Source: a virus | IMG/VR virus record: IMGVR_UViG_3300006802_000098 | Span: 1-64,000 of that record | Reading direction: 5' to 3' (one strand) | DNA: 64,000 nt | Part shown: one piece after another, positions 40,423 through 62,137 of the stretch | Numbering within the stretch: the stretch's first letter is position 1 | Layout: each line of letters opens with the position of its first letter | Notes under the pieces: generated by a model | Told to the model about the DNA's origin: nothing | Database searches by the model: none | Seen by the model: the letters and a program-made list of their open reading frames with translations, nothing else | Translations under genes and position numbers: made by a program

Positions 40423-41659
40423 TATCTTTTGTATGCAGATTACAGGTAACAATGTTGACCTACCCGCTAATACACAATACACTCGTTGGAATGGTACACA
40501 CCTAGACACAATACGTAGGTGTGTAAATCATGCTAGAACAGAGTACGTTTGGATTGTAGCAGACTGTTGCAATTATTCTAACTTTGATTTTACCTGGCAA
40601 CCCGTGCCCTGGGAAGCAGATCAGATACACTGCTGGGCAAGCGGTAACCAACAGTTTGGTGATACTTTCCTGGTGCCTGTCAGTGCTTTTAAGAAGCAAG
40701 AGCAAGGGCTTAAACTACTTGAGTGGTATGAGTATATCAACTGGCACAGTGAGCCCAGTGTGCCGCGCTATGAATGGCCCACAGTGACCGATTTAGATGC
40801 TCAGACCAGCTTGTATGCTTGGCACAAGCAAACCAGCGCAGACATTGACTATGAGCCCAGTTTATGGAAAAAACGTGATCTACACGCCTTTACACAGAGC
40901 GGTAGTGTACTACTAGTGCCCAGGGACTGTAAAACGCATTTTAAAGAGCAATACTACGACTACCCACATATCTTGCGCCATACGGACTATAATATACCTG
41001 AAAAACTACTTGATGTAGTATACTTGAGCAACGGTGAAAAAAACGCCCTTAAAAACTGGAATATATTAAAAGAAATTTGCCCTAGGGCAAAATGGGTTGA
41101 GGGGGTAACAGGCAGGGCAGCGGCATATAAAGCCTGCGCTGAGATAAGCGATACACCCTGGTTCTTTAATGTGTTTGCTAAGTGTATTGTAGATCCAGAC
41201 TTTGACTTTAACTGGCAACCAGACTGGTTACAAGGACCCAAGCACTGGATATTTCACAGTCGTAATCCTGTTAATGGGTTGGAATATGGACACATGGGTA
41301 TCATTGCTTACCACAAGCAGATGGTACTTGATGCTACTGAATGGGGGCTAGACTTTACGCTGAGTGCTAGACACGGCGTTGTGCCTGTGGTGGGTAGTAC
41401 AGCAGACTTTAATACTAGTCCATACGAAACTTGGCGTACTGCTTTTAGAGAATGTATCAAACTGTATGGACAATCAGATCCAGAAAGTCGCTACAGGTTA
41501 AATCAATGGTGTACAGTTGGTAAAGGTGACTATGCTGAGTGGAGTATAGAAGGTGCTACTTATGCCACTGTTTATGCTGCTAGCGGAAACGATCTACAAG
41601 CCACCTTTGAATGGAAATTCCTCAAAGAACTCTTTGATAGCAAGTATAACATGGTGTAG
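40415..41659 (+). CDS. Glycosyltransferase-like protein with two related halves
   Basis: A 414-residue protein. Two similar segments are visible: RRCVNHARTEYVWIVADCCNY... near 35 and YKACAEISDTPWFFNVFAKC near 240, each followed by a D.DF.F.WQP block. The second half resembles the protein at 57088-58005 (shared ARNAVNGLxYG/ RNPVNGLEYGH region). That relative keeps a DGDN metal/sugar-nucleotide motif; here it is replaced (FAKCIVD), so catalysis is doubtful. The 3' end overlaps the convergent aminotransferase by 66 bases. Confidence 0.6.
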   Translation: MFDIFCMQITGNNVDLPANTQYTRWNGTHLDTIRRCVNHARTEYVWIVADCCNYSNFDFTWQPVPWEADQIHCWASGNQQFGDTFLVPVSAFKKQEQGLKLLEWYEYINWHSEPSVPRYEWPTVTDLDAQTSLYAWHKQTSADIDYEPSLWKKRDLHAFTQSGSVLLVPRDCKTHFKEQYYDYPHILRHTDYNIPEKLLDVVYLSNGEKNALKNWNILKEICPRAKWVEGVTGRAAAYKACAEISDTPWFFNVFAKCIVDPDFDFNWQPDWLQGPKHWIFHSRNPVNGLEYGHMGIIAYHKQMVLDATEWGLDFTLSARHGVVPVVGSTADFNTSPYETWRTAFRECIKLYGQSDPESRYRLNQWCTVGKGDYAEWSIEGATYATVYAASGNDLQATFEWKFLKELFDSKYNMV

Positions 41660-42586
41660 TTCATGATCTGTCATATAAGGATCACAGGGAAGAGCTAGTT
41701 GGCATAAACAGTTTTCTGTGGCTTGTGGTGATTTATAAATTGGTTGTTCGTAAACACGTTTAATTTGTATTTCACGCTTTATCATCCACATTTCTAGTTC
41801 TACTCTAAGCGGAGTGCTTATCACAAACTTGCTTACTTGACCACGTGGATCAGTTACGCAGGTAACTAGATGTCTAATTTGTTGATAATAGTCTCTGGCA
41901 ATCTCTTGTCTGCGTTCTTGCCAAATTGGAAAGTGATCCAGCTTTACTAGAAGTTCAGCACATTCACGTTCACTGGGTATACTATTGCCGCCTATTTCCA
42001 AACCATGTCGTCTTAGGGATCGTAAATTACCAGCAATAGTATCTGAGTTTGTTACGACTGCGCCGGCGTTTCCAAAGTTAGGTAAACTTTTTGTAGGATC
42101 AAAACTATAACTAGCAAAAATGCCCTGTAGTGGAGCACCAAAATGTTGAGCTCCATCTTCATATATTTTTTTATTTTCTGGTAAGTGTTGATAATTATTT
42201 CCAAACAAGCCTACCCAAATAACATGATCTATACCACTGGGTATTTTATTCCAATCCAGTAAACCAGTATCTGTTACATCAACCGGCACTGGAATATTAT
42301 TACTCCTATTAATACTGTTTTTTGTTGCTATAAAGGTTTGTGCTGGAAATGCAATTAAAGATTTAGATAAGCCACTGGCTACTAGACCATAATATAACGC
42401 ATCACTGCCACTACCAAGCATTACACAGTGCTTTGCTTGACTTAGTTTGGCAATTCTATTTTCTAGTTCTTTTGTACAGTTTCCTAGCAGATGCCTTCCT
42501 GATTGATAAACCTGTTCAGTTGCTAGGTCTAGGCTTTGTTTTAATTCAGCATACAATCTATCTAGATTGTGGAGGTGGATTGTCAT
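41594..42586 (-). CDS. DegT/DnrJ/EryC1-family PLP aminotransferase
   Basis: A 330-residue protein: CVMLGSGSDALYYGL near residue 54, IYEDGAQHFGAPLQG near 140 (Asp contacting PLP) and SYSFDPTKSLPNFGNAGA near 158 (PLP lysine). Complete, but shorter than the usual 370. These enzymes aminate keto-sugars. It ends inside the convergent gene at 40415-41659 and is the last gene of the minus-strand cluster. Overlaps the upstream small gene by 29 bases. Confidence 0.8.
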   Translation of the reverse strand: MTIHLHNLDRLYAELKQSLDLATEQVYQSGRHLLGNCTKELENRIAKLSQAKHCVMLGSGSDALYYGLVASGLSKSLIAFPAQTFIATKNSINRSNNIPVPVDVTDTGLLDWNKIPSGIDHVIWVGLFGNNYQHLPENKKIYEDGAQHFGAPLQGIFASYSFDPTKSLPNFGNAGAVVTNSDTIAGNLRSLRRHGLEIGGNSIPSERECAELLVKLDHFPIWQERRQEIARDYYQQIRHLVTCVTDPRGQVSKFVISTPLRVELEMWMIKREIQIKRVYEQPIYKSPQATENCLCQLALPCDPYMTDHELHHVILAIKEFFEEFPFKGGL

Positions 42587-42791
42587 CTTCTGAAACTTTT
42601 ACTTGTTGCAAATTAAGAATAACTAATTCACGTAATTCATCTATGTTAACATCACCTGACTCGATCATGTCTAATGCTTGGCTTGGTTTTATTTTTTTTA
42701 ATCGCACAAGAGCAGAAGATAAAATCACTAATTCCGGTCTGCTCATTTTCGGGTATTTTTTAATTATACTTAATATGTCTGTGTAAGTCAT
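42558..42791 (-). CDS. Small hypothetical helical protein
   Basis: A 77-residue protein with an N-terminal helical part (MTYTDILSIIKKYPKMSRPE) and an acidic, proline-rich end. No family recognised. One base separates it from the upstream gene. Confidence 0.6.
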   Translation of the reverse strand: MTYTDILSIIKKYPKMSRPELVILSSALVRLKKIKPSQALDMIESGDVNIDELRELVILNLQQVKVSEDDNPPPQSR

Positions 42792-42792
42792 T

Positions 42793-44755: not shown

Positions 44756-44787
44756 GTTATCGATTCTCCTTTTAGGTCGATAAGTAT

Positions 44788-44816: not shown

Positions 44817-45348
44817 ATACTTTTTTATAATTTTAACAATTTTTTTATTAACTACTAAGCCTCTTTTTTCTCAAGAAATTAATTCAGGGGAAATGATTGT
44901 TAATAATATTTTTACCTTGTTTGAAGCAAGTCTTCAATGTCAGGCAGTAGCAGAAATCACTGCCAATTACTACATTATTTACCTAGGATTCAAACACAGT
45001 TTAGAAAAATCTGATATTAAAAAGTTAGAAACGCCAAAAAGTATAAGTTACCTCAAAACACAATTTACAAAATATGAAGAGTTAATACAAGAAATAAAAA
45101 AGTTATTAACTCGCTTAGACAGTACTACGGCAAACAAAATAAAAAATTATGAACAAAGTACATACATAAAAATAAAACAACAACTACTATATTTTTTATT
45201 GAACAGAATAGAGCCAGATTTTATAGAAAATACTATGGCCTTGAACAGTGAATGTTATCAAAAATTTAAATTTCGCCAAGATTATTTAAAGACAATATCT
45301 GCAGATATTGACAGGCATATACAAGAAAATCCTAGCTTAAAACCTTAA
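44806..45348 (+). CDS. Putative secreted/periplasmic helical protein
   Basis: A 180-residue protein with a cleavable signal peptide (hydrophobic KYFFIILTIFLLTTKPLFS, likely cut near residue 23). The mature part is Lys-rich and helical with several cysteines. It is the only plus-strand gene between 41.7 kb and 61 kb, and is more AT-rich than its surroundings, which suggests later acquisition. It overlaps the convergent carbamoyltransferase by 17 bases. Function unknown; exclusion, envelope effects or lysis are possible. Confidence 0.65.
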   Translation: MISKYFFIILTIFLLTTKPLFSQEINSGEMIVNNIFTLFEASLQCQAVAEITANYYIIYLGFKHSLEKSDIKKLETPKSISYLKTQFTKYEELIQEIKKLLTRLDSTTANKIKNYEQSTYIKIKQQLLYFLLNRIEPDFIENTMALNSECYQKFKFRQDYLKTISADIDRHIQENPSLKP

Positions 45349-46813
45349 CACCATAATGCTTTTCAAACCTATCTGCGTCCGCTCTAGTATTAATCATGGG
45401 CTCGCCACGGATATTTAGACTAGTGTTTAACAGCATTGGACAGTCAGTTAGCACATACCATTTTTCTAGAAGTTCCCTTACGCCAGAATGATCGTTTCTA
45501 CCAACCGTTTGTACTCTACTGGTTGAGTCTACATGAAGTATAGCAGGAAAGCCAAGCCTTGTACACCCGTAGACGCTCTGCATATATGGATTTGTTTCCC
45601 AGGGCGGCATAGCAAAATAATCGCTGGCATGTTCATTTAGAATCATGGGAGCAAAAGGTCTAAACTTTTGTCTGCGTTTTATTTCATTTACACGGTCTTT
45701 GATATCAGCACCTCTCGGATCTGCTAGCAAACTTCTAGTGCCCAGTGCTCTTGGTCCAAACTCCGCTCTGCCACTGGCCACTCCCACTATTTTGTTTTCC
45801 ATTAGTTCACTGATAATTTCATCAACTGGATATTCACCTGGTATATTGGTACCCAGATATGGTCCTTGCCAGTTTAAGCGTTTACCATAGGCTAATGCGG
45901 CTGCTCCTAGACTGCTACCACAATCTCCTGGATTGGGCATTATCCAAAACCTGTTCCATATCTCACTTATTTTAGCATTTGCTACACAGTTTAAGGCAAC
46001 GCCGCCCATGTATACACAATCATCTATATCAGTATAAGTTTCAGCAAGTTGACGCATTAAGGTAGTTAAACAGCGTTCAGTTACAAGTTGTGCGCTTAAT
46101 GCCAAACTTTCTGGGTCAATATCTGGCAACATGGATTTAGGTATACCAGTATGACAGTTATACTTCCAGGTTTGATTGTGATCAGCATCTACAAAGGTAT
46201 TATAAACGTCTTTGTACCAATTTGGCATGCCATAAGCACTCATACCCATTAAGATATATTCTTCTTCCATGGGTTTAAGACCAACTGCTTGTGTCATAGC
46301 ACTGTAAAATAATCCTAGACTGTTTGGGTATCTGCGTTTTAGAACGGATTTATACACCGCATTGCCATGGTTATCATAACTGGCAATATAGGCACTGTAG
46401 GTATCCCATTCTCCAATAGCATCTACTACCACAACCATGGCTCTATCAAACGGTGATGTTTGAAACCCTGCGGCAGCATGACTCAAATGATGACTATATG
46501 TGGTTATTGGTTTGTTTATGCCAACGTCTGCTAGATGACGTTTAGGAGATTTATCAGTAAGTGCTTTGCGCCATTCTCCGCTGTAGAGTTGTCGTGTCTT
46601 TTTAAGCCAGGGTCGCTCATACCAAGCAACTTGACTTATATCACCATAACTCAAGGCTTCATCTATTATTTCTTGGTTAAGTTCTGGGTCATTTTTAACA
46701 CGACTATATCGTTCGCTGTGAGCAGCAAATAGAATATCACCGTGATTGTTGATTACACTCACACCAGCATCATGAAAGCCGGCACTCACACCCAGTATAT
46801 TTGGTAGTTTCAT
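45332..46813 (-). CDS. Carbamoyltransferase (NodU/CmcH family)
   Basis: A 493-residue protein starting MKLPNILGVSAGFHDAGVSV, with HSERYSRVKND and YSHHLSHAAAGF near residue 105 (the metal-binding His pair of the Kae1-like fold), then VYMGGVALNCVAN near 270 and GRAEFGPRALGTRSLLADPR near 350. These enzymes transfer a carbamoyl group to a hydroxyl of a sugar or antibiotic, using carbamoyl phosphate via an adenylate. In this cluster a sugar of a surface polysaccharide or the virion, or another metabolite, could be the target. Confidence 0.9.
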   Translation of the reverse strand: MKLPNILGVSAGFHDAGVSVINNHGDILFAAHSERYSRVKNDPELNQEIIDEALSYGDISQVAWYERPWLKKTRQLYSGEWRKALTDKSPKRHLADVGINKPITTYSHHLSHAAAGFQTSPFDRAMVVVVDAIGEWDTYSAYIASYDNHGNAVYKSVLKRRYPNSLGLFYSAMTQAVGLKPMEEEYILMGMSAYGMPNWYKDVYNTFVDADHNQTWKYNCHTGIPKSMLPDIDPESLALSAQLVTERCLTTLMRQLAETYTDIDDCVYMGGVALNCVANAKISEIWNRFWIMPNPGDCGSSLGAAALAYGKRLNWQGPYLGTNIPGEYPVDEIISELMENKIVGVASGRAEFGPRALGTRSLLADPRGADIKDRVNEIKRRQKFRPFAPMILNEHASDYFAMPPWETNPYMQSVYGCTRLGFPAILHVDSTSRVQTVGRNDHSGVRELLEKWYVLTDCPMLLNTSLNIRGEPMINTRADADRFEKHYGVKVLS

Positions 46814-46911
46814 TTATATATAAAAGGGTCTCTACGTCTCAACTCTTTTAATCTTTTTCTATACTGTATTTCCAGTTTAATACGGTTTATAATATTTTTA
46901 ATCCACTGCAT
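46810..46911 (-). CDS. Small basic phage protein, 33 residues
   Basis: ATG at 46911-46909 inside the end of the upstream radical SAM gene, and TGA at 46812-46810 overlapping the carbamoyltransferase ATG (ATGA). The product starts MQWIKNIINRIKLEIQYRKR and ends RRRDPFIYK. The strong Lys/Arg heptad pattern and the DPFIYK ending resemble a tiny conserved protein seen in T4-type aquatic phages. It fills the only 84-base gap here and is well placed for translational coupling. Confidence 0.65.
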   Translation of the reverse strand: MQWIKNIINRIKLEIQYRKRLKELRRRDPFIYK

Positions 46912-48181
46912 CTGGTATATCCTTCCACCATTTGATAAGAGCAGGATCGCGTAACGTGTCTATAAACCTTGTCCCTTTTCTACCTGTATCCAGACTTTCC
47001 ATTCGTTGTTTGGCCCTACATCTGGCCTCGAGATATACTTCCGACGGATATTCTTCTTCAAACGTTTTACGTTTTAGTAGGTTTATTAACACGTCACGCA
47101 TCGCACCTTTTGTATTAGGAACTATACTATTAATTATCTGTTCTAAAATATGACGCGGAAGAAATAATGGACTCATTGCTATATCAGGCGTAAACGCAAA
47201 ACAAACCTTTGCTAATATTTCTACGTCCAGTTCGTCTGCTAATTTAGTAATTTCTGGTACTTGAAATAAGCCTGGCGTGGTTAATGTAAAGTCTATACGC
47301 ATCATGCGTTTGTTTTTAGCATATGCTAAACCTTGTTTAAAATTTTCTAACCACTCATCGTATTTCAATCCAGTTCGTATATACTCTCCTATCTTACCAA
47401 CACCATCCAAACTGGCACATATTTGCCAATCTCTAATTTTATCTAATATATCAGTATACAAGTTTACACCCTGATAATCTACACGACTTAAATTTGTATT
47501 GTATCTAGCATACAAACCAGGACCATCGCCTAGTTCAATAATCCGTTGCATGTACCGCCAATGCTGTTCATACATCAGTGGCTCGCCGCCTACCCAGTAT
47601 ATTTCTTCTATGCGATGTTCTTCAACTGCCCGGGCAAACTCTGCTTCTATTTGTGTGTCTTGATAGTTGCTAATTTGTTTTTTTACACTGGGTTCCATCC
47701 AGGGTTCTATTTTGCCCTGTTTGCGAGCCTCTGTTTCCCAACTGCTGGATAGCATAGGTCCACACATACGACATTTAAAGTTACATAGGTTGCTGAAACG
47801 ATAGTCCCAACTCACAGGTTGCATGGTTGTATAGCCAGTGGCATCGGTGGTTTCTGCTATTTGCTTATATTTGTGTTTGAATAAATGCCAAAAATAATCA
47901 CGATAAACGTCTGTGTTAAGTAACTTCTTGTCGCATACTTCGCACTCAGGTGGCAGTTCTCCGGCCATCATTTGACGGCGCACACGGCGTATATGCTCAC
48001 CATTCCACCACTCATCTAAGGTTTGCGGTTTATACTCATTTGTGCCATCTGCGGTGTCTATATATTGACGAAAGTTCTGTGCTGGCTCTCTACTAGCACA
48101 ACACAGTCTACGCTCTGTCTGTGGACTAAGATAGGTATGTAAAAAAGGTGCAAGGCATAAATTATCAGGCTTATCTTTCAT
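46898..48181 (-). CDS. N-terminal-twitch radical SAM protein
   Basis: A 427-residue protein. An N-terminal cysteine-rich part (CLAPF...RRLCCASRE, then CEVCDKK near residue 85) should hold an auxiliary iron-sulfur cluster. The radical SAM core then has CNFKCRMC near 134 and YWVGGEPLMYEQ near 195. This 'auxiliary domain first' order matches the N-twitch radical SAM family. The next two upstream genes have the same layout. The substrate is not known; peptide or sugar modification is possible. Overlaps the upstream gene by 11 bases. Confidence 0.85.
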   Translation of the reverse strand: MKDKPDNLCLAPFLHTYLSPQTERRLCCASREPAQNFRQYIDTADGTNEYKPQTLDEWWNGEHIRRVRRQMMAGELPPECEVCDKKLLNTDVYRDYFWHLFKHKYKQIAETTDATGYTTMQPVSWDYRFSNLCNFKCRMCGPMLSSSWETEARKQGKIEPWMEPSVKKQISNYQDTQIEAEFARAVEEHRIEEIYWVGGEPLMYEQHWRYMQRIIELGDGPGLYARYNTNLSRVDYQGVNLYTDILDKIRDWQICASLDGVGKIGEYIRTGLKYDEWLENFKQGLAYAKNKRMMRIDFTLTTPGLFQVPEITKLADELDVEILAKVCFAFTPDIAMSPLFLPRHILEQIINSIVPNTKGAMRDVLINLLKRKTFEEEYPSEVYLEARCRAKQRMESLDTGRKGTRFIDTLRDPALIKWWKDIPDAVD

Positions 48182-49343
48182 AACCTATTACTCTGGCAAA
48201 TTTTTCATGTGTAGTAGCAAAGTTTTTATCCCTAAAGTCATCTTTTTCTTTTAACCGTTTTTTTAGTTTTTCGCCATCGTTTTCATCACTACGTTGGCTA
48301 ACTATAAACTTAATGCTGCGGATCTTTTCTTCATAATCAGGGTGCTGAACTATACACTTATCTAAAGCCAGCATAACCGGAGCCTTGGCAGTCTTTGGTA
48401 GATTATACAAACTAAACTCTTCCGGATCATGCATTAGATTATAGTGTACGTCAGTGATAGGTTGTTTCTTTACCCAGGTTAAGAAGTCAGCCATGTACAT
48501 AACGTTTTGCACGTTCCAGGTTACACAAATTTGAAACTCAAAAGGATATCCTTGGTCTCGTAGTTCATAAAATTTTTCTATATTACGGTTTACTGTTGCC
48601 CATTTAGCACCATCGCGCTCATATTCAAAACGCTCGCCCACATTGTCTATGCTAAAAGCGATCTGTACACGTTTAAACTTTTTCCATACTTCATGCTGTT
48701 TTGGAAACTGTGTTCCGTTTGTATTGTAGTGTATGTCAATATCACCAGCATAACCACCATCCACTGCTCGCTGTAGCAAATCAAAATGCTGTTTAATCAG
48801 GAATGGTTCGCCACCAGTGAACTCAAAATACTTAATGTCGGGTAATAGTTCATCTACGTGTTCCCAGAATTTTTTACTGCTTCTAGGCCAGCGTCCCTGA
48901 CTTAACCACTGCTTGGCTATGTGCTTTTCGCCAAATTGTGCTAGGTCTTCCTGCGCCCAGGCGCTGCTACTCCAACTGCCACAAATTCTACATTTTAGAT
49001 TACAGATATTGCCTAGTTTTAAGTCTAAAAATCTTAGCGTATCTCCACGGGTGTCTTCGTAGTTTACTTCTATGTCTTTAAACTTTTCCAGCATGTACTG
49101 TCGTTTACTTTTTTTGCCAGCATCTTCTTCTTTAAAACATTTGGCACACTGACCAGGTTGGCGATTTTTCATAAATGCTTCACGCAACTCTGTCATGTAT
49201 TCACCTTGTAAAACTTCTGTTAGGGTGTGTGTTTTTACATTAACAAATGGTATTTCTCTGTCAAATAAACAGCAGGGCCTAAGGTTTCCCAGTGGCGTTG
49301 TCTCTAAACTAATCCATGGTAGTATACATCTATTATCTGTCAT
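48171..49343 (-). CDS. N-terminal-twitch radical SAM protein
   Basis: A 390-residue protein of the same type: CILPW...LRPCCLFDRE near residues 6-30, CAKCFKEE near 64, then the SAM site CNLKCRICG near 114, and FEFTGGEPFLIKQH near 175. The loop region IGDIDIHYNTNGT matches others in the cluster. Related to both flanking genes, which indicates tandem duplication. Overlaps neighbours by 11 bases each, suggesting a co-translated operon. Confidence 0.85.
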   Translation of the reverse strand: MTDNRCILPWISLETTPLGNLRPCCLFDREIPFVNVKTHTLTEVLQGEYMTELREAFMKNRQPGQCAKCFKEEDAGKKSKRQYMLEKFKDIEVNYEDTRGDTLRFLDLKLGNICNLKCRICGSWSSSAWAQEDLAQFGEKHIAKQWLSQGRWPRSSKKFWEHVDELLPDIKYFEFTGGEPFLIKQHFDLLQRAVDGGYAGDIDIHYNTNGTQFPKQHEVWKKFKRVQIAFSIDNVGERFEYERDGAKWATVNRNIEKFYELRDQGYPFEFQICVTWNVQNVMYMADFLTWVKKQPITDVHYNLMHDPEEFSLYNLPKTAKAPVMLALDKCIVQHPDYEEKIRSIKFIVSQRSDENDGEKLKKRLKEKDDFRDKNFATTHEKFARVIGYER

Positions 49344-52342: not shown

Positions 52343-52995
52343 TTGTATCTCGTTGTAATTAAAACACTTGCTCTGGAATTTTTATTAGAGAAGTTTGCAC
52401 TAACATGAAAGTTTTCTCTAGGCCATATCATTGCATCTCCTAATTTCCATTTGTGTATGCAATCTACTGTAAAGCCACCTAATGCATCATAGTTTAGATG
52501 ATTAAGATATTTGTTATAAATTTCTTTGTCAAAAGGAGTGTTGGCTAATCCATAATCGCTACGAGTGATTTGTTTGTACGTAGTAATACCTTTACTGCCA
52601 AGACCGAGTTCGTTATTAAACGTTACTGCCTTTGCACTTTTTTGTTCAAATATTATTGTATAATACGCATCTGTATCATGAACACTTATAGGAATTAAAT
52701 AACTATTTGCAATATTTTTATCTTCATTGATGTATCCATCACTATGAACACCACCAGCACTATAGTCAAAATTTATATTTACAGTAGTAATTTCTTCATC
52801 CTGCGGTAATTTTTCTTGCAACTGTTTTAGTTTCCTACTAAAAAAAGGTTGATCCCAATGAGCCATTGTTAGAAAACGTTGCCCATTATCTCGTGTTTCC
52901 GGAAGTACACTGTGATACCATATAAACCAGTCGCATTCTTTTTTGCTAAAAAAATTATATATCTGTTTCATTTGCAAAATACTCTTTAATTTCAT
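52339..52995 (-). CDS. 2-oxoglutarate/Fe(II) oxygenase-like protein
   Basis: A 218-residue protein. Candidates for the iron site are HSDGYINED near residue 79 (HxD) and NFHVSANFS near 198 (distal His), followed by an Arg (RASVLITTRYK), the usual order in Fe(II)/2-oxoglutarate hydroxylases. The region between has the expected beta-rich composition. It lies between two small related genes in the radical SAM cluster. Target unknown. Confidence 0.6.
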   Translation of the reverse strand: MKLKSILQMKQIYNFFSKKECDWFIWYHSVLPETRDNGQRFLTMAHWDQPFFSRKLKQLQEKLPQDEEITTVNINFDYSAGGVHSDGYINEDKNIANSYLIPISVHDTDAYYTIIFEQKSAKAVTFNNELGLGSKGITTYKQITRSDYGLANTPFDKEIYNKYLNHLNYDALGGFTVDCIHKWKLGDAMIWPRENFHVSANFSNKNSRASVLITTRYK

Positions 52996-53164
52996 TCAAT
53001 ACTTTTTTTGTTGTGTGTTGTCCTTCTTGCATTTCTTTAACAACACCAAGTCGTCTTTGTATATCTAATAATACTGGATTTTGAAACTTCCAAACTATAT
53101 GTCCGTTGTGCCCGAGATATAGATTACCATCTTCCTGCGCAGAAACTTTCACTCTTTGTATCAA
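52955..53164 (-). CDS. Small protein with LYLGHNG domain, TTG start
   Basis: A 69-residue protein whose only near start is TTG at 53164. GNLYLGHNGHIVWKFQNP, then a helical end with NEIKEYFAN, matches the C-terminal half of 53213-53704 (NNLYLGHNGKLVY ... EMKKYFFND). It contains just the second of the two domains. A different frame of the same DNA carries a radical-SAM-like N-terminal fragment (53124-53207). It may itself be a remnant. Confidence 0.45.
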   Translation of the reverse strand: MIQRVKVSAQEDGNLYLGHNGHIVWKFQNPVLLDIQRRLGVVKEMQEGQHTTKKVLNEIKEYFANETDI

Positions 53165-53207
53165 GCATGTCTTTTTTAAATTTAGTATAATCCATAATAT
53201 GGTCCAT
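53124..53207 (-). pseudogene. Possible fragment of an N-twitch radical SAM gene (N-terminus only)
   Basis: ATG 53207 to TAA 53124 would encode 27 residues ending DTKSESFCAGRW and stop. The end resembles the start of the cluster's radical SAM proteins (DSKSASFCGAKW at 50646-52052 and SGSFCLAKW at 55156-56517). It could be the 5' remnant of a deleted third CHHP-type gene. The match is short, so this stays tentative. Confidence 0.35.
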
Positions 53208-53212
53208 AATTT

Positions 53213-53704
53213 TTAATCATTAAAAAAATACTTCTTCATCTCTTGCAGAAATTCTTTATTACTACGCATGCCCTGTGGCTGATGAATATTACTAAAACGT
53301 TCATGGAACCATGGTATACTAGGAGTAATAAATTCATTATATACTAACTTACCATTATGTCCTAGATATAAATTGTTTTTCCACTCCAGGGGATGGTTAT
53401 CTACGTGCCAATTATCCCAAGGAGGTATATCTGGATATTGTATAAAATTATATAGTTCCTGCTTAATGTCTACCTTGTTTATATAAAGTTTTTGCAATTC
53501 AAAATGTGTATCTGTATCTGTACTATAGTTTTTTCCGTAATGAACTATTTCTATAACATGTTTACCGTCTTTTAATTCACAATCAATGGATATACTGCCA
53601 TCTCGTGTACATCTATGGTTAGCATAGATTTTACCATCAACAAGTAATTTTATTAAAGGCAATCCTGCTTTAGTAAAGTCGAACTTAAAATTAGTACGTT
53701 CCAT
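53213..53704 (-). CDS. Two-domain protein: YGKNY domain fused to LYLGHNG domain
   Basis: The start is the ATG at 53704; a TTG six bases upstream also opens the frame. The 163-residue protein has IVHYGKNYSTDTDTHFELQK near residue 53 and NNLYLGHNGKLVYNEF near 107. The first half is a relative of 52049-52342, the second half of 52955-53164. The two halves are thus found here fused and, just downstream, separate. Function unknown. Confidence 0.65.
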   Translation of the reverse strand: MERTNFKFDFTKAGLPLIKLLVDGKIYANHRCTRDGSISIDCELKDGKHVIEIVHYGKNYSTDTDTHFELQKLYINKVDIKQELYNFIQYPDIPPWDNWHVDNHPLEWKNNLYLGHNGKLVYNEFITPSIPWFHERFSNIHQPQGMRSNKEFLQEMKKYFFND

Positions 53705-55178
53705 TGGCAATTTTTTCGTAACTTATCTTTAACCTTTTTAAATGACTGTCGGCGTTCCAAACATGGTATCCTAAATCTACTACATGCTCTTGTAACTCTA
53801 TACGTCTACGGATACGTTCTCTTAGCGTTAAGTCTGGATTGTCTGGCATTAGCCAGTTAAGACCAACCCGATCTCCTGTATCACCTAGGTGCATTAATCC
53901 TAGATCTGTCATTTCATTAAACAAAGGAGTTCCTTCATCTACACTTAATGTAGCACCTAAATTTAGTCCTCTAATTGTTCCATTTAGGGCATATTTTTTA
54001 AAATTAGTAAACATGTCCAGTGTTTGTTGATGATCTTCTTGTCGTTCAGTAGGATATCCACAAATCATACTAAAGAAACAGTTTAAGTTGTTCTTGTCAA
54101 GTTGGTCAATTACCGCGGCAAGTTCTGCTGTAGTAAACTGTTTACGCATGTGTTCTCTGACACGGTCACTGCCAGTCTCTGCTCCTATCATAACATGTGT
54201 GCATCCGGCACGTGCCATTAGTTGATAATCTTTTGGCGTTTGCTGGTTTAACCTTCTAACAATGAATTGGCCGTTAAATCGAAAGTGAGCGTCTGGTAAA
54301 TTATTTTTTTCATAATATTCAATAAGCGAAAACAGTAATTGTCTGAATGCTTTCATACTCCCATTAATTAAACTGTCAGTAAAAGTAAACTGTGTTACTC
54401 CATACTTTTCATAGTTCGTAATCATTTCTTCTGCTAGTACATGCCCACTACGAAACGTAAACTTTTTCCAATGTTCATGTATATCACAAAAACTGCATGC
54501 TCTTACACAGCCGCGGCTCCCGTTAACAGGAAGCATCTTTAATCCGTCATCATATTGATAGTTTAGTTCTATTAAATCGTCATACTCAGGAAAAGGTATA
54601 GTGTCTAAACTTAATTGCTTATAACTGTCATTATTAATACCAGGATACTGGTCGTTTCCTGTTAAAAGTTCTACGAGTGCTATCTCGCCATCACCTCTAA
54701 TAAAATAATCAATCTGGTTTAAGTTTAGCATCTCTGCACCAAAGTCGTTGTATGCACTTGCAATACCATTGGTGCTAATACCAGCACCGCCTATAACTAT
54801 TTTTCCAGTGTATTTCTGTTTTAGTTTTTTAGTAAACAGCCTAGTGGCAAGTTGACACATCATTGTAAACACACTAATGCCAACAACCCTGGGATTTATT
54901 TCTATAACATCATCCACCCAGGAATCAAGTATTTGATCTACTCTAGCATCAATCTCAGGATCTCCATGAGTAGCTTCACTAAAATAATCAAAGAATTTTG
55001 AGTAGTCACTGCCAGTTTTGTTAAACAAATCTAAATTTAAATCTAGAATTGTACAAGTAAAACCAGCATCAACTACACTTCCTTTGAGCTGACTAGTGCC
55101 TGCCGGAGGATACTGTAACCCACTTATGGGTATATTAATTAGTAAAATGTCTAAATTATCGGTTAGCATTGTATTCAC
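53691..55178 (-). CDS. B12-binding-type radical SAM protein
   Basis: A 495-residue protein. The N-terminal 170 residues are a cobalamin-binding-like Rossmann domain (ILLINIPISGLQYPPAGTSQ, VVGISVFTMM, IVIGGAGIS). The SAM site is SRGCVRACSFCDIHEHW near residue 224. It resembles B12-dependent radical SAM methyltransferases and related enzymes (GxxPPxG at the start). No obvious cobalamin lower-ligand DxHxxG motif is visible. Start may be GTG 55178 or ATG 55169. It sits between the two CHHP-type twitch radical SAM genes. Confidence 0.85.
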   Translation of the reverse strand: MNTMLTDNLDILLINIPISGLQYPPAGTSQLKGSVVDAGFTCTILDLNLDLFNKTGSDYSKFFDYFSEATHGDPEIDARVDQILDSWVDDVIEINPRVVGISVFTMMCQLATRLFTKKLKQKYTGKIVIGGAGISTNGIASAYNDFGAEMLNLNQIDYFIRGDGEIALVELLTGNDQYPGINNDSYKQLSLDTIPFPEYDDLIELNYQYDDGLKMLPVNGSRGCVRACSFCDIHEHWKKFTFRSGHVLAEEMITNYEKYGVTQFTFTDSLINGSMKAFRQLLFSLIEYYEKNNLPDAHFRFNGQFIVRRLNQQTPKDYQLMARAGCTHVMIGAETGSDRVREHMRKQFTTAELAAVIDQLDKNNLNCFFSMICGYPTERQEDHQQTLDMFTNFKKYALNGTIRGLNLGATLSVDEGTPLFNEMTDLGLMHLGDTGDRVGLNWLMPDNPDLTLRERIRRRIELQEHVVDLGYHVWNADSHLKRLKISYEKIANGTY

Positions 55179-56517
55179 ATGTACTCCAAAACTCAGTCAT
55201 CTCCGGAAACGTTTCTAAAAAGTTAGTATTTCTTCGGCGATCATGTTCTCTAAAGAAACGATAAAAGTCTGCACGTTTACGCTCTATATCGTCAGTGCCG
55301 GCTTTCATCCAAGCTAAATCTCTTTTCATTTTTAAAACTTCATAGTCCTTGAATCCATGACTATTATGAAGATTTTCTTCCATAAACTCAATACAGTCTG
55401 TTAAACATACCTCATATGCTGGCGGTAATATCTGCATGCTTTGCCAATCAGGCGTGTATAATAACGGAGTATCAAACCATACACGCTGATAAGTTTTTGT
55501 ATATGTTTTGCGTAGGTAAAGTATATGTTCAAGTAATCGCTTTAACCCAATAATGTTTAAATTGCTCATTGTTATTATAAAAGTAAGACTTGAACGTTCT
55601 GGAACTTCATTTATAAAACGTTCAACTCTATTTATAGCAACATCAAAGTCCAGACCATGACGTATATATTCTGCTTGTGCTCCCCAGGTATCTAGACTAA
55701 CAAACTGCATAAAATGTTCTACTGTGCCTGGAAGTTTAGTAATGCGTTTTACATAGTCCAAATATTTTTCAAATAATTGCTGTTCAACACTAAAATTACT
55801 AGTAACATTCAGGTGTAGGTCTGGCTTGGGATTTTCTAACACATAATCAAATACACGAAAGGTATTGGGATCCATTAATGGCTCACCACCTGTCATACGA
55901 AAGTGTTTTAGGTCTTTATATAAATCAGGCCACCAACGCCAAAATGCTTTGCGATATGGATTAGCTTCTCTTTTAGGTATTGGTTTACGATCACCTGTAA
56001 AGTATTCAGGATCATTATGTGGCTTCTGTGTAGGATATGCTCCGTGGTCACGGGATTCACGTTCCCAGGTTGAACTAAACTGTGGACTACAATAACTACA
56101 TTTCAAGTTACAACTATGACTAAAATTTACTTCAACATAACTTGGGTTAACGTCTGCTTCAGGGTTGGCCACAATGTCGTCAAATGCTTCCATAGCCCAG
56201 GGTTCACCACTGCGATAATGACGATCACTGAGGTCACCGTTTTTCTCAATGTTCCAGCAGTAGTTACATTCAGTGCACTTAACACCCGCCATCATTTCAG
56301 CACGGCGCTCTTTCTTATGTGCAGTATTATGTAGGGCACTTGGATTTTCTGCAAGCGGCTCAGTAGGAATACGATGCAGTGGAGGATGATAGCAACTATT
56401 GGTATGCCCTGTTGTTAGATGTAGGCTTACCTGCTTCCATTTAGCCAAACAGAAACTGCCACTAACACCTGCTAGTTTTGCTTTTGCAATTTGTGCATCA
56501 CTAAGGTATTCACTCAT
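55156..56517 (-). CDS. N-terminal-twitch radical SAM protein, CHHP subtype
   Basis: A 453-residue protein: FCLAKWKQVSLHLTTGHTNS then CYHPPLHRIPTEPL near residues 25-50, CTECNYCWNIEKNGDLSDR near 85, SAM site CNLKCSYCS near 139, FRMTGGEPLMDPN near 212. It parallels the gene at 50646-52052 throughout. Overlaps the upstream P-loop gene by eight bases and the B12-type gene by 23. The substrate is unknown. Confidence 0.87.
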   Translation of the reverse strand: MSEYLSDAQIAKAKLAGVSGSFCLAKWKQVSLHLTTGHTNSCYHPPLHRIPTEPLAENPSALHNTAHKKERRAEMMAGVKCTECNYCWNIEKNGDLSDRHYRSGEPWAMEAFDDIVANPEADVNPSYVEVNFSHSCNLKCSYCSPQFSSTWERESRDHGAYPTQKPHNDPEYFTGDRKPIPKREANPYRKAFWRWWPDLYKDLKHFRMTGGEPLMDPNTFRVFDYVLENPKPDLHLNVTSNFSVEQQLFEKYLDYVKRITKLPGTVEHFMQFVSLDTWGAQAEYIRHGLDFDVAINRVERFINEVPERSSLTFIITMSNLNIIGLKRLLEHILYLRKTYTKTYQRVWFDTPLLYTPDWQSMQILPPAYEVCLTDCIEFMEENLHNSHGFKDYEVLKMKRDLAWMKAGTDDIERKRADFYRFFREHDRRRNTNFLETFPEMTEFWSTCEYNANR

Positions 56518-57091
56518 TTTCTAACAAATTCAATCTAAAACTTTCCGCAATAATATCTTCGTCTTTTCCGGCTACAATGTCTGTAACAGGTGCAAAAGGT
56601 CCCCACTCTTTAAAAATTAAGAGTGCCTGTTCAAAATTCTTATTTGTATGACTATATAATTCATCTCTAATAATTTTAGAAAACTTACAAGTATCATTAT
56701 CGATATCTATTAGAACGTCACACTGCTTGTCGGGTATATTATCTTCATAATACCTAACATTACCAACTATAGTATCAAACGCAGATTCAACTGTGTTTCC
56801 TGTCTCATTTTTCCAAAAGACATCATAAAATCTGTGCAAGGATTGATAAAAGTCCTGGGTCCATAATTTGTGGATTTCAAATTTTGGAAAATGCTTTCTT
56901 AAAGTAGTAATAGTTAAGTTATGACATGTATATATTTTTCCAAATTCTACATTAGTATTTTCATCTAGATGTTTACTAAGGCCATAATTATGAGTTTCAT
57001 AATTTTGTTTATGCCCAGTATAATCTAAATCTTGTAGCATTAGCCTATATCTATTAGTACCCACTCCTGGGTATCCACAAATTATAATCAC
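56510..57091 (-). CDS. P-loop protein, sulfotransferase/kinase-like
   Basis: A 193-residue protein starting MIIICGYPGVGTNRYRLML, where GYPGVGTN stands at the position of the Walker A/PAPS-binding loop but the usual Lys is replaced by Thr-Asn. The rest has the helical composition of small kinases or sulfotransferases without diagnostic motifs. The neighbours suggest it modifies the same target as the cluster. Call is tentative. Confidence 0.5.
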   Translation of the reverse strand: MIIICGYPGVGTNRYRLMLQDLDYTGHKQNYETHNYGLSKHLDENTNVEFGKIYTCHNLTITTLRKHFPKFEIHKLWTQDFYQSLHRFYDVFWKNETGNTVESAFDTIVGNVRYYEDNIPDKQCDVLIDIDNDTCKFSKIIRDELYSHTNKNFEQALLIFKEWGPFAPVTDIVAGKDEDIIAESFRLNLLENE

Positions 57092-58005
57092 CAGCCTTCT
57101 GCCTTTCTTATTACTTCTAATTCTGTAGTCATAGGATCGTATGCATGATAGGTCTGACTGTAATAGTGTTTGAAAAACTTACTTTCGTCTACCGAGTAAT
57201 CAACAATGGGTAATTCAAGTATGCGTCTTAATTTTGCTCCATATTCATAGAAGTTTGAGTCCAACCATTCCTGTTCCTGGTCCCACAAACGATCCAGTGC
57301 CCTAAAGTCTCTAACTTCATGCCAGTCCCAGTCTGTGAGCATAAGCATATAAGTGCCTTGACGAGCACCATACATTGCCTCAAAGCCATGTTCAGCATCT
57401 AAGCCAACACTTTGCCAGATACACAGTTTGTCAAAGTTCTTAGCATGCACCTGTTGCTTGAATTCTTCCAGTGTAGGCTTGCGTCCTTTATTAAGACACA
57501 TCTTAACCCCTTCTCTGAAACCAGCACGCCAGGCATGTTTAGCATCCCCGTTGGGGTAGGTAGTGCTGTACACATTATTCATTGCTAGGTATTTTTGATC
57601 AAAACAAAACTCAACCACAGTTTCGTCGGTACCATCAGTTTCTTCGTGCGTTTTCATGTCGTTAATAAATTCACGTGTCCAACAACTTAAACCACCATTA
57701 CCATACATAAGTCCGTTTACTGCATTGCGTGCTTTCCAACGAAATACACAATCCTCATACTCTGGTTTAATATCTAACTGTAGATCAAAAAAGTTACTGT
57801 CTGGAATATTATCGCCGTCAATTAGAATAAAACGTTCAGTGTCGCTGGCCGCGGCGGCGGCTTTGTGTGCTGCATCACTACCTTCAACACCATCCACACG
57901 TTTAGCCCAAGGAACCATATTTTGAATATTTACCCAAAACTCTTCCTTTTGTGGTTCATCATAGGTCAAAAAAATCGTGTCTAAATCCGCTATGTCAACC
58001 AGCAT
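57088..58005 (-). CDS. GT-A-like glycosyltransferase
   Basis: The start is set at ATG 58005, just before the upstream stop; a longer frame to 58059 overlaps the oxygenase by 65 bases. The protein (305 residues) has TERFILIDGDNIPDSNFFDL near residue 60: DGDN is a DxD-type sugar-nucleotide/metal site. RWKARNAVNGLMYGNGG near 95 is shared with the gene at 40415. This suggests a phage glycosyltransferase acting on sugars in the cluster. Confidence 0.65.
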   Translation of the reverse strand: MLVDIADLDTIFLTYDEPQKEEFWVNIQNMVPWAKRVDGVEGSDAAHKAAAAASDTERFILIDGDNIPDSNFFDLQLDIKPEYEDCVFRWKARNAVNGLMYGNGGLSCWTREFINDMKTHEETDGTDETVVEFCFDQKYLAMNNVYSTTYPNGDAKHAWRAGFREGVKMCLNKGRKPTLEEFKQQVHAKNFDKLCIWQSVGLDAEHGFEAMYGARQGTYMLMLTDWDWHEVRDFRALDRLWDQEQEWLDSNFYEYGAKLRRILELPIVDYSVDESKFFKHYYSQTYHAYDPMTTELEVIRKAEGW

Positions 58006-58807
58006 CTTCCATTTCCCTGAGTAGTTTGCGTCGTTCTGCTCTAAGTTCTGCTTTGTCAAAATCTGACAAATGTAAGTCGTTGTTTAAATTTACAACTTCG
58101 CAGTTATAACTAAAACTCCAGCGTTCACCTTTGCTGCGGAAAGGACCAACACTGTGATTAAGCCAGGCTGGAAAACAATATAAGTCACCAACCCTGGGTT
58201 TAACCTTAAATTGTGCTAAACTCATGCCTGTACTTCTGCCATCCCAGAAGTTTATAAGCCCAGCACTGGGATCATGATCCTCTAATAACCATTCACGTTC
58301 AATATCGTCTGGCAATTTAAAGTATCCAACACCGCTAACAGTGCCAGTATGGGTGTGGGGAGGATTGAAGTCACCCGCTACACTAATATTTCCCCAAACT
58401 TGCTGAATGTTAACAGTAATATTCATGTTTTGTAATTGTCTGTCTACGAGTTCTACATGCTTGGGAGTTAATATGCCTTTCTTAAAACGCCACTCTACTA
58501 GTATACTACTAGCATAAAGTTGACTTGCGATATCTGCTAAACAGTTTGTTAGTAGCGGTGTTTTGTCTCCTAGTGTAGTTTCTTGAATTTTAAACTCACG
58601 ACGCATGTTACCAGCAAGAGCATAACTGTTATCGTCTTCCTCACTTATGTCCGATGAATCGCTGTATTTCTGGAATACTTGTTGCATTTCAGTCACTAGA
58701 TCATCCTCCATTGTAGTTTTAACAATGTTACAACTAAACGGCCTAATCACTTCATATTTTTCGTCTACAGTTACCCCAAGTCTATCTTGAACTTCATTCA
58801 ACATCAT
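57995..58807 (-). CDS. 2-oxoglutarate/Fe(II) oxygenase
   Basis: A 270-residue protein with ATG at 58807 after an AAGGAA site. FNPPHTHTGTVSGVGYFKL near residue 152 has the HxH/HxD-type ligand, and PRVGDLYCFPAWLNHSVGPF then GERWSFSYN near 215-240 give the distal His and the 2-oxoglutarate-binding Arg. It belongs to the group of phage 2OG oxygenases related to prolyl hydroxylases. Possible targets are a virion protein or host factor. Confidence 0.8.
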   Translation of the reverse strand: MMLNEVQDRLGVTVDEKYEVIRPFSCNIVKTTMEDDLVTEMQQVFQKYSDSSDISEEDDNSYALAGNMRREFKIQETTLGDKTPLLTNCLADIASQLYASSILVEWRFKKGILTPKHVELVDRQLQNMNITVNIQQVWGNISVAGDFNPPHTHTGTVSGVGYFKLPDDIEREWLLEDHDPSAGLINFWDGRSTGMSLAQFKVKPRVGDLYCFPAWLNHSVGPFRSKGERWSFSYNCEVVNLNNDLHLSDFDKAELRAERRKLLREMEDAG

Positions 58808-59138
58808 CAAGTTCCTTTATACAAAAAAACGGATTATTCTCCAGTGTTTGTGCTGGTGTCTTTTTCCAGTATATATTTTGTGCAGTTTCAATTTTAGCCA
58901 GTTTTCCATCTATAATTCTATGATTAACACTACTAGCATGAAAACTTTTATCAATAATTATATAAGGTTCTGTCCATATAGTATCCACAGTAACAGTGTC
59001 AGCGCGGCTTGTATCAAACTCCCCAGTGTCTTCATTATACGGCAATCTACGCTCTAGAGCAATTTTTGTTTTATTAAATGCTGCTAATGCCCTAGTTAGT
59101 TCACCAAATTCATCGTTATAGTCCCAGTCTTCGCTCAT
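58794..59138 (-). CDS. Hypothetical protein, 114 residues
   Basis: ATG 59138 is favoured over a TTG at 59147. The product begins MSEDWDYNDEFGELTRALAA and has a beta-rich middle. No family recognised. It shares 14 bases with the next gene and 23 with the previous one. Confidence 0.6.
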   Translation of the reverse strand: MSEDWDYNDEFGELTRALAAFNKTKIALERRLPYNEDTGEFDTSRADTVTVDTIWTEPYIIIDKSFHASSVNHRIIDGKLAKIETAQNIYWKKTPAQTLENNPFFCIKELDDVE

Positions 59139-59967
59139 ATCTTTCAATTAAATCCTCTGTACAAAAATCTTTTTGGTAATAGTGAAATGGATAATGCTGG
59201 GCAAATCCACCTAATATTAGATCCATGTCCTTGGTAAGTGTCCAGGGCACAGCATTTCTCCAATCCATGTTAGGATGCCAACCATTAACTGCCCCCTTCA
59301 TGTGCGTAAAGGTTGGATAACCTATTTTGGTGGTAAATCCAATATTACTGTTACAGAACTTGCTGATGGTGCTGGCAATACTAAAGATAACATCAGTATC
59401 AGGTACACTGTAAACATTACCGGCAAGAACACTATTTCCAAGGTTATTATAGTTTTCAACAATCCTCTTTGACAGTTTAAAAAACTCCACACTAGGCCTG
59501 GATAAACGAAAATACATAAAACCATTATAAATATTGCCCAAGCAATTAACATCAAAAAACCTCCTGTATGCTCTAGTATAACTGGGTCTGCCCTGATAAT
59601 CTCTTACTGTATTAGTAAACACAACATTCTGATTTCTGCATCCGTGCCACCAGTGATCTAGGTTGCGAGGAATTAGCATGTCACTTTCAATTTTGAAAGT
59701 TTCTTTGAATGGCGTAAGATCCAGTGCTTGACATTCTAGAGCATAGGGATTACTAGACTTTGGCACCACCCTTATATAATCAAATACACCACGCTGCCTG
59801 TCTGTTAAAGTTTCTGCTGATTCTTCATCAACTACTACAGCAAACTTATTTATAGAGCAGGTTAACTTAATACTAAGAGCGAGCAAGTATGCTTGATTAA
59901 CATAGTTAACAGTGTCTGAGTTTTGTGCAAAAGTTAGCCAACCCTGCGCTTCATCTTTGGCTAGCAT
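59116..59967 (-). CDS. Glycosyltransferase-like protein (nucleotide-sugar fold)
   Basis: A 283-residue protein. KIESDMLIPRN near residue 94 resembles the DxD-type metal site (SDM in place of DAD) of GT-A enzymes such as GT8; the N-terminal YVNQAYLLALSIKLTCSI fits their first strand and helix. DTDVIFS near 195 and a conserved HMKGAVNGW and HYPFHYY follow. Both this gene and the next are probably paired glycosyltransferases. Confidence 0.6.
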   Translation of the reverse strand: MLAKDEAQGWLTFAQNSDTVNYVNQAYLLALSIKLTCSINKFAVVVDEESAETLTDRQRGVFDYIRVVPKSSNPYALECQALDLTPFKETFKIESDMLIPRNLDHWWHGCRNQNVVFTNTVRDYQGRPSYTRAYRRFFDVNCLGNIYNGFMYFRLSRPSVEFFKLSKRIVENYNNLGNSVLAGNVYSVPDTDVIFSIASTISKFCNSNIGFTTKIGYPTFTHMKGAVNGWHPNMDWRNAVPWTLTKDMDLILGGFAQHYPFHYYQKDFCTEDLIERYERRLGL

Positions 59968-60736
59968 ATTGATCTAGTGCTCCATATATTTCTGGATTCT
60001 GTAAACATTTTTTATTCATACAGTGTAGGTTTACACCCTGTATTTTTACAGCATTGTACTTGTCACCGTATCTATAACGTATCAGCAACTTGTCGCCTTC
60101 TACTTTATATATGCTATCTTCGGTGCTTAAACTTGCTAGCGGATGATTAAAGTATGTGCCACTGCTATAACCATTCATAAGTTGATGTGCTACAGTTAAA
60201 CTAAAATCATTGCGATATTTTCCCGCCTTAAAACCGTATAGTTTAGCATAGTAACGCCAATTTGCTTGTATGTTTTTCATGGTTTCAAATATGCGATGTG
60301 CTAGTTCACATTTACGAAAATAGACTACTGTAGCCCAGAGCATGGGCAATCCAGATCTGGTCATTACGTAGTCATTTTTAAAACTATTAGTTTGTGTTAC
60401 GTCCCACACACTATTATAACAGAGAAATTCGTGGTTGCTGGAAAAGTATTGTTTTAAATTATCATTAAATGTAAGATAGTCTACATCTATTAAAAGTGTT
60501 TCGTCGTAGGGAGATAGATCAAAAGCCAGTGTTCTATCACTGTTATACCAGGGCACCGTAACTATCTCGTTGTTATGCCAACGGAATGCTCTAGTATTGC
60601 CTGGCCGTGCTTCACCTACATGTATATGCGTTTCAATGTCTAAATGTTTTTCTACAAGTTTGGCAGCTAGTTTAGCAAACCCTATGTAGTCTATTGTTTC
60701 ATGTGGTGTAGCAAGTAGTAGTGCACCCTTGCTCAT
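59951..60736 (-). CDS. Glycosyltransferase-like protein (GT-A fold)
   Basis: A 261-residue protein. YDETLLIDVDYLTFNDN near residue 80 gives a clear DxD-type motif (DVD). The start GALLLATPHETIDYIGFA is typical of a first GT-A beta-alpha unit. KIQGVNLHCMNKK near 240 is in the position of the distal His metal ligand seen in GT8-like enzymes. It overlaps the neighbours by four and 17 bases. Confidence 0.65.
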   Translation of the reverse strand: MSKGALLLATPHETIDYIGFAKLAAKLVEKHLDIETHIHVGEARPGNTRAFRWHNNEIVTVPWYNSDRTLAFDLSPYDETLLIDVDYLTFNDNLKQYFSSNHEFLCYNSVWDVTQTNSFKNDYVMTRSGLPMLWATVVYFRKCELAHRIFETMKNIQANWRYYAKLYGFKAGKYRNDFSLTVAHQLMNGYSSGTYFNHPLASLSTEDSIYKVEGDKLLIRYRYGDKYNAVKIQGVNLHCMNKKCLQNPEIYGALDQYASQR

Positions 60737-61059
60737 AATTGTTCTACACGTCTAACCTTTTTTAATTCTTCGTGCTGATTGTGCCAATCATTCATTACTT
60801 CGTACCAGCGTTGTCTACAGTGTACTAACATGTCACAAGCATCGGCAATCTTTACTGGATTATCATAGTCGTCTACAAGATATAGCAGTTCATCTGCTGG
60901 CCATGTTGCTAGTAGTGCCATTAGTTCTACAGTGATACGAAACTGACCACCATTATATGTGATAGTTAAGCGTTGTTCCTGTTGTTCTTTAAGTGTGAGT
61001 CGCTGACGATTATGATCTAATCGTTGGCGGGCAAATTCTTCAAATGTTTCCTGAGTCAT
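60733..61059 (-). CDS. Hypothetical protein, possibly leaderless
   Basis: Two ATGs, at 61065 and 61059, can start this 108-110-residue protein (MTQETFEEFARQRLDHNRQR...). The predicted transcription start of the promoter directly upstream falls at 61059, the A of the second ATG, so a leaderless message is possible. The protein is charged and helical, with a hydrophobic middle (ITVELMALLATWPADELLY). No family recognised. Confidence 0.65.
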   Translation of the reverse strand: MTQETFEEFARQRLDHNRQRLTLKEQQEQRLTITYNGGQFRITVELMALLATWPADELLYLVDDYDNPVKIADACDMLVHCRQRWYEVMNDWHNQHEELKKVRRVEQL

Positions 61060-61065
61060 ACACAT

Positions 61066-62125: not shown

Positions 62126-62137
62126 ATTATATAATCC

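Follow-up and report, generated by a model that had tools for sequence, protein, structure and literature searches.

A conserved phage gene cluster joining tail-fibre genes to five N-twitch radical SAM families may encode a pathway for a carbamoylated glycan

A 64,000-nucleotide stretch of viral DNA (the window; positions 1 to 64,000 of the 65,457-base IMG/VR virus record IMGVR_UViG_3300006802_000098) carries a dense cluster in which tail-fibre genes adjoin genes for glycosyltransferases (GTs), five N-twitch radical S-adenosylmethionine (rSAM) proteins and an O-carbamoyltransferase. We propose, with a probability of roughly 0.5, that the enzymes encoded here act in the cytoplasm to assemble and edit a carbamoylated glycan, which would be carried by the tail fibres of the phage itself. 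The original prediction, made from the window's sequence, had placed a one-strand cluster next to tail-fibre genes at 41594-61065. The cluster is indeed found there, although the conserved unit extends to both sides, taking in the fibre genes fib1 and fib2 (61136-63574) and a homologue of the glycosyltransferase GT1 (40415-41659). Cluster genes do lie on the minus strand, although one plus-strand open reading frame (ORF) and unrelated genes are found among them (Table 1). The jumbo phages Phosso and Atu_ph07 have the DNA polymerases nearest to that of the record (45-49% identity). Carriers of the core genes are probably large, uncultured phages, many of jumbo size, and their relatives point to an aquatic origin.

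In hundreds of viral contigs these genes keep their order and occur together almost without exception, which strongly supports the earlier proposal that they serve one pathway. The order that recurs in IMG/VR is fib2-fib1-o110-GT3-GT2-GT1-rS5-rS4-rS3-rS2-rS1-(F3)-CarbT, and the core consists of these genes plus F5/o117 between GT2 and GT1. The window is without F3, a core protein for which no convincing family or structure match was found, and a gap of 84 bases separates its rS1 and CarbT genes. A GT1 profile search returned at least 598 IMG/VR stretches, the best 80 of which were examined with family hidden Markov models (HMMs) and are referred to as GT1 loci; their flanks end at 10 kb, and counts of distal genes drop partly for that reason. 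Loci share descent, and locus counts do not equal independent events. Of the loci fetched, 137 distinct ones hold the full set of five rSAM families, and the order rS5-rS4-rS3-rS2-rS1 is kept in 134 of them, a check that had been suggested for related phages. Because order is kept and co-occurrence is near-absolute, these loci do not display the gene shuffling that had been named in advance as counter-evidence.

An initial pair of searches yielded 41 viral loci, of which about 20 share the same gene order. Family matches fall on one strand in 1071 of 1076 cases, and median pairwise protein identity within families is 0.25-0.64. When fib1 was searched first, 41 loci were recovered at identities down to 23%, and o110-GT3-GT2-GT1 followed in 39; the two exceptions (L206 and L219) lie within about 1.3-2.3 kb of a contig end. 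Searches begun with rS4 found GT1 and rS5 upstream in all 70 loci having 9 kb of upstream sequence, and those begun with rS1 found F3 and CarbT downstream in all 60 loci having 9 kb of downstream sequence, together with a second GT1-type protein (53/60), a GT10-like protein (47/60) and a DegT aminotransferase (46/60). Contigs binned into metagenome-assembled genomes (MAGs) of Verrucomicrobia, Pelagibacter and Rickettsiales (L050, L051 and L089) bear the phage fibre-GT-rSAM unit and are therefore probably phage.

All five proteins predicted to be N-twitch rSAMs match the N_Twi_rSAM family NF033640 of NCBIfam over their full length, with scores of 294, 340, 392, 308 and 331 bits against a cut-off of 170 bits, and resemble this family in carrying twitch cysteines before the rSAM domain. 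CxxxCxxC and GGEP motifs are present in all five (49-94 viral homologues per family), with four more cysteines upstream of the rSAM domain in each family and five in rS1; CxxxCxxC and the N-terminal auxiliary-cluster cysteines are conserved at 95% or more (49-94 loci). Viral rS1, rS2, rS4 and rS5 sequences form separate, near-pure clades with few cellular or reclassified members in a tree built from 151 sequences, where 16 of 17 rS3 sequences also group apart. The rS1-rS5 proteins are separate old families and not recent duplicates, which argues for a distinct reaction in each family and against amplification of a single activity.

In most of the cellular loci fetched, NF033640 members occur as one copy, whereas 15 large viral records (85-354 kb, possibly incomplete) hold 5-19 matches each, and none of 14 control genomes holds a match above the cut-off. 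The surroundings of cellular N-twitch genes are unrelated or mixed and give no clear function; 5 of 107 neighbouring proteins match a GT2-family glycosyltransferase. Cellular relatives of rS5, rS1 and rS2 come mainly from Bdellovibrionota MAGs. On one Bdellovibrionaceae MAG contig (L090), which seemingly holds respiratory-chain genes, a CarbT lies near rS3-like and rS2-like rSAMs at the contig edge, a possible cellular counterpart. A viperin-like role of the rSAM proteins in defence or counter-defence is highly improbable: the matches to prokaryotic viperin models are weak, reaching 18-25 bits against an NCBIfam cut-off of 180 and no more than 30 bits with the PADLOC models, and span the common rSAM core only. 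Two tandem short rSAM proteins (280 and 295 amino acids; 10792-12518, plus strand) score over the Radical_SAM cut-off far from the cluster and are without N-twitch.

The three glycosyltransferase-like proteins of the original prediction were also borne out, GT1 and GT3 as predicted GT-A folds and GT2 by its homology to GT3 (hhalign probability 98.8). None of the three has a Pfam match, and profiles of GT1, GT3 and rS3 gave no useful match among sequences of solved structures. AlphaFold2 models calculated from homologue alignments reached predicted local distance difference test (pLDDT) values of 86.8 for GT3 and 81.1 for GT1. Foldseek matched the GT3 model to the GT6/GT8 enzymes GTA/GTB, LgtC and GlyE (E down to 2.8e-5, probability 1.00; 110 matches at E<=0.001) and, more weakly, the GT1 model to the GT-A enzymes ArnC, HddC and WrtF. 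TM-scores are low for both models, which therefore support the fold class but not a close family. The GT1 alignment contains an invariant DxD-like pair (D81/D83) and the motif NGLxYGNGG, and suggests a likely start near 58005. No relatives of GT1 or GT3 were found in isolated phages.

CarbT has both domains of a NodU-type carbamoyltransferase, as originally read, and its nearest solved relatives include the novobiocin carbamoyltransferase, GdmN and TobZ. It is 61% identical to a homologue from another cluster (L017) and 50% identical to one in marine virus AG-345-D19, and it occurs in 14 of the 15 large viral records, the remaining record having its cluster at a contig edge. Glycosyltransferases also modify phage DNA, so that this too is a conceivable target for both enzyme types. 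The two CarbT domains are shared with NodU, TobZ and GdmN and with a phage carbamoyltransferase of the same superfamily that acts on 5-hydroxymethylcytosine to make 5-carbamoyloxymethylcytosine, as described in PMC8670742. Hypermodification of DNA, for example to carbamoylated or glycosylated cytosine, nevertheless seems improbable. The DNA enzyme is only 25% identical to CarbT, the cluster adjoins fibre genes, and the thymidylate-synthase-type partner that such a pathway requires (PF00303) is present in 4 of the 15 large records. Beside CarbT in the window no thymidylate-synthase-type hydroxymethylase was seen, only a gene that appears by eye to be of ThyX type. The window also offers another candidate for DNA modification: genes resembling FolE, QueD and QueE (20704-21393, 28097-28576 and 28794-29675, plus strand) suggest, from their sequences, a 7-deazaguanine modification. 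A further gene at 18117-19634 looks by eye to be of DpdA/TGT type and has no family match.

Within this stable core, the genes B12rS, s165, oxy1, s97 and oxy2 are inserts of few loci, and other inserts occur in GT1 loci, namely SGNH (31/80), a GT10-like gene (45/80) and an epimerase (7/80). The SGNH label is based on a GDS...GHP motif pattern and a weak GDSL hydrolase match, and the GT10 label on a conserved TEK-type motif only. B12rS combines B12-binding and rSAM domains, as had been noted, and the NCBIfam models closest to it, those of P- and C-methyltransferases, are matched below cut-off. Two Fe/2-oxoglutarate (2OG) oxygenases had been called; oxy2 matches PF13759, although oxy1 is without a Pfam match. 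A 217-base gap in this region is a cassette remnant, in which initial rS4-like codons are joined directly to the 59 final codons of a second s165. The 59 residues are 79.7% identical to the s165 of another locus (L004), and 19-24 residues are 50-68% identical to rS4 N-termini (HMM, 73 bits). Because this is the remnant of a deleted cassette, cassettes evidently come and go within a stable frame. A scan with s165 returned one relative. B12rS relatives in phages L036-L040 adjoin a small protein (mostly of type F13) and a putative oxygenase (F9), a module that resembles B12rS, small protein and oxygenase in the window.

SPASM/twitch rSAM, B12-rSAM and 2OG enzymes found together are typical of peptide maturation, and proteusin-type pathways for ribosomally synthesised and post-translationally modified peptides (RiPPs) combine rSAM, B12-rSAM and 2OG oxygenase. 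It is therefore conceivable that the rSAM enzymes edit the fibre polypeptide itself (epimerisation, cross-links, C-methylation or hydroxylation), with sugars as a second layer, in a RiPP-like chemistry on a structural protein. B12rS matches a RiPP C-methyltransferase model at 5e-25, below its cut-off. However, we regard this as unlikely. B12rS and the oxygenases are rare inserts, unlike in the proteusin-type combination, and the rSAMs are accompanied throughout by glycosyltransferases and an O-carbamoyltransferase. The genes mostly overlap, and the gaps between them hold no convincing short precursor ORF, a finding that also fails to support the RiPP-like system originally suggested; the search of the gaps for a precursor yielded the cassette remnant only. 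The small proteins have no Pfam match above cut-off to a RiPP recognition element (RRE; PqqD-like), no dedicated RRE search having been made.

Since these two kinds of enzyme are the constant partners and the tailoring inserts are of sugar type, the cluster points to a glycan, and the gene content fits the decorated sugar of the original prediction. Because a soluble pathway is joined to fibre genes, modification of the fibre is the simplest reading. We hypothesize that soluble phage GT3, GT2 and then GT1 would place sugars on the adjacent tail-fibre proteins in the host cytoplasm. Twitch/SPASM enzymes that act on sugars by dehydrogenation, epimerisation or deoxygenation are known, and each of the five N-twitch rSAMs might carry out a different hard radical step of one of these kinds on those sugars. 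DegT, recognised as an aminotransferase both originally and by its family match here, could aminate afterwards, and CarbT would add an O-carbamate. The optional inserts (B12-rSAM methylation, 2OG hydroxylation, SGNH, GT10-like, epimerase) could vary the final structure from phage to phage, as serotype genes do. More tentatively, the cluster may represent a widespread, undescribed viral surface chemistry, in which five distinct rSAMs give the fibres a carbamoylated and perhaps non-standard glycan (or edited amino acids) and exchangeable cassettes diversify the virion surface like bacterial serotype loci.

The same enzymes could in principle remodel the surface of the host during infection, altering lipopolysaccharide or O-chains to exclude rival phages or to prevent progeny from sticking to debris. 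This is the role offered for pelagimyophage glycosyltransferases in PMC7029224, and Pelagibacter and Synechococcus phages have sugar clusters in which GT, UDP-glucose dehydrogenase and CarbT genes occur. Yet a flippase (Polysacc_synt_3, PF13440) was found in none of the 15 large viral records and in all 14 control genomes, and a PHPT initiating transferase (PF02397) in none of the 15 compared with 9 of the 14. A simple hydropathy test detected no membrane segment that recurs consistently within any core family. These absences, together with the lock to fibre genes in both search directions, make host-surface remodelling less likely and favour the virion location that was among those first envisaged.

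Co-divergence of the core proteins was consistent with decoration of the fibre. Divergence of GT3 and of F5 tracks that of fib1 more closely than the GT1 or rS4 background predicts (partial correlation 0.54-0.63), whereas for rS5 and rS4 the relationship is weak (0.11-0.14 given GT1). This pattern fits GT3 and GT2 meeting a variable fibre and the rSAMs acting on a common moiety. Proteins of Atu_ph07, Phosso and PA5oct match fib2 at 37-43% identity over 46-59%, and the relative in one PA5oct record is annotated as a virion structural protein; o110 is perhaps a candidate fibre chaperone.

Several points weigh against a glycan on the fibres. Co-divergence declines with distance from the fibre, and physical linkage alone could explain this gradient. 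The fibre roles of fib1 and o110 are assigned from position, homologues among virion proteins having been found for fib2 only. The GT genes are tied to the fibre gene by genetic linkage, from which we infer the fibre to be the acceptor; the sequence of steps and the product are likewise inferred. SPASM/twitch rSAMs often act on peptides, N-twitch rSAMs are also present outside the cluster in the same phages, and the host could provide enzymes for both the flippase step and the lipid carrier.

An ordered fibre-GT-rSAM-carbamoyltransferase core appears to be undescribed; none was found in a literature search that was judged mainly by title and abstract and that left subscription papers and preprints mostly outside. 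The earlier statement that such a cluster has no described function thus stands for the core, although GT-rich host-recognition clusters (HRCs) with some rSAM cassettes are known. Phage glycan and host-recognition clusters and virion glycosylation are established, and the rSAM core appears to be a new version of them; there is a fair chance that its chemistry is of a new class. PMC7029224 mentions in passing that rSAM gene cassettes distinguish two HRCs, and PMC7150976 reports that viruses of the Tasman Sea are enriched in rSAM and glycosyltransferase genes. The HRC of pelagimyophages and cyanomyophages (PMC7029224) likewise combines fibres and glycosyltransferases in T4-like aquatic phages, and the present cluster has both in a T4-like phage whose relatives suggest an aquatic source. 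However, that HRC is described there as a nonsyntenic island, whereas the present core, of at least 12 genes, keeps its order with variation mainly in the inserts, and includes five specific N-twitch rSAM families. Mycobacteriophage virion glycosylation (Freeman 2023, as cited in PMC12619734) places glycans on capsid and tail tube; it involves other phages and genes, and the citing passage is without rSAM, carbamoyl or aminotransferase steps. The moraphage paper PMC12619734 itself was rejected as a match, as radical SAM is not mentioned in it.

No isolated phage was found with the full core. The nearest cultured handles are Vibrio phages K566 and K567, which carry related rSAMs, and Pelagibacter phage Mosig EXVC030M (MT647606). 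In K566 (L042), four rSAM genes are interleaved with two GT8 genes and one GT4-like gene, mostly annotated as hypothetical, an arrangement that speaks for the glycan reading. In Mosig, rSAM, DegT, CarbT and 2OG-type genes adjoin tail fibres, but the rSAMs are MoaA-like and not clearly N-twitch, and the stretch examined contains no GT1-GT3 or rS1-rS5.

If a glycan on the fibres is the product, many large aquatic phages would devote at least 20 kb to oxygen-sensitive radical chemistry for fibre decoration, and virion glycochemistry would be a central trait of phage ecology. Many rSAM, 2OG and carbamoyltransferase annotations listed as 'auxiliary metabolic' in viromes would then represent structural decoration and not host metabolism, and the cluster would be a source of radical enzymes, as yet uncharacterised, that edit sugars or peptides. 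The tight link between fibre and enzymes makes the question of the acceptor directly testable.

Table 1. Genes and other features of the cluster region, in window coordinates; fractions give occurrence in GT1 loci unless marked otherwise.
Feature	Position	Strand	Description	Basis
fib2	62138..63574	-	Virion/tail-fibre protein, conserved unit member	PHROG tail/virion matches; 78/80
fib1	61136..62125	-	Fibre-like protein, no known family	78/80; reciprocal fib1 search
o110	60733..61065	-	Small protein between fibres and GTs	79/80; no family above cut-off
GT3	59951..60736	-	Predicted GT-A-fold glycosyltransferase (GT6/GT8-like)	AlphaFold2 and Foldseek; 80/80
GT2	59116..59967	-	Glycosyltransferase homologous to GT3	hhalign; 80/80
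o117 (F5 family)	58794..59147	-	Small protein	o117/F5 profile match 97.1; F5 61/80, o117 4/80
oxy2	57995..58810	-	2OG-Fe(II) oxygenase, optional	PF13759 1.5e-17; 3/80
GT1	57088..58059	-	Core glycosyltransferase, most conserved GT of unit	Alignment, AlphaFold2, Foldseek
o193	56510..57091	-	P-loop-like by eye, optional	No Pfam or PHROG match; relatives among ORFs of ten viral loci, some records overlapping
rS5	55156..56517	-	N-twitch rSAM	NF033640 1.5e-98; 75/80
B12rS	53691..55178	-	B12-binding rSAM (methyltransferase-like), optional cassette	PF02310 and PF04055; 5/80
s165	53213..53710	-	Small 'LGHNG' protein	Adjoins B12rS in few other loci: L004, L005, L028 and MAG contig L052
Cassette remnant	52996..53212	-	rS4-like rSAM 5' end fused to second s165 3' end	
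oxy1	52339..52995	-	Putative oxygenase, optional	No Pfam match; profile match to unverified phage family F9
s97	52049..52342	-	Small protein, distant s165 relative	hhalign probability 85
rS4	50646..52052	-	N-twitch rSAM	NF033640 1.3e-91
rS3	49333..50649	-	N-twitch rSAM	NF033640 4.5e-117
rS2	48171..49343	-	N-twitch rSAM	NF033640 2.2e-101
rS1	46898..48181	-	N-twitch rSAM	NF033640 1.6e-87
CarbT	45332..46813	-	O-carbamoyltransferase, core end	Carbam_trans_N PF02543 4e-32; Carbam_trans_C PF16861 2e-49
Small protein	44806-45348	+	Signal-like N-terminus; inside cluster, downstream of CarbT	Opposite-strand ORF
o43765 and o44387			Unrelated genes inside 41594-61065	
ThyX-type gene	43076-43768		Unrelated to cluster, inside 41594-61065	By eye
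DegT	41594..42586	-	DegT/DnrJ aminotransferase, frequent downstream member	PF01041 1.6e-34; 46/60 rS1 loci
GT1-like	40415..41659	+	GT1-like protein past cluster end, frequent member	HMM 81 bits

The T4 late-promoter motif TATAAATA occurs 5 times against 7.1 expected, which is uninformative. A second group of sugar-type genes lies at 14964-20707 (plus strand) and includes an epimerase, a UDP-glucose dehydrogenase-like gene, a 2OG-like gene, a short DegT and, by eye, a GT-like gene. A 1188-amino-acid protein encoded at 22464-26030 (plus strand) has a lipoprotein-like signal, a subtilase S8 domain (PF00082, 1.2e-26) and what appears by eye to be a C-terminal autotransporter-like region, which is unexpected in a phage genome.

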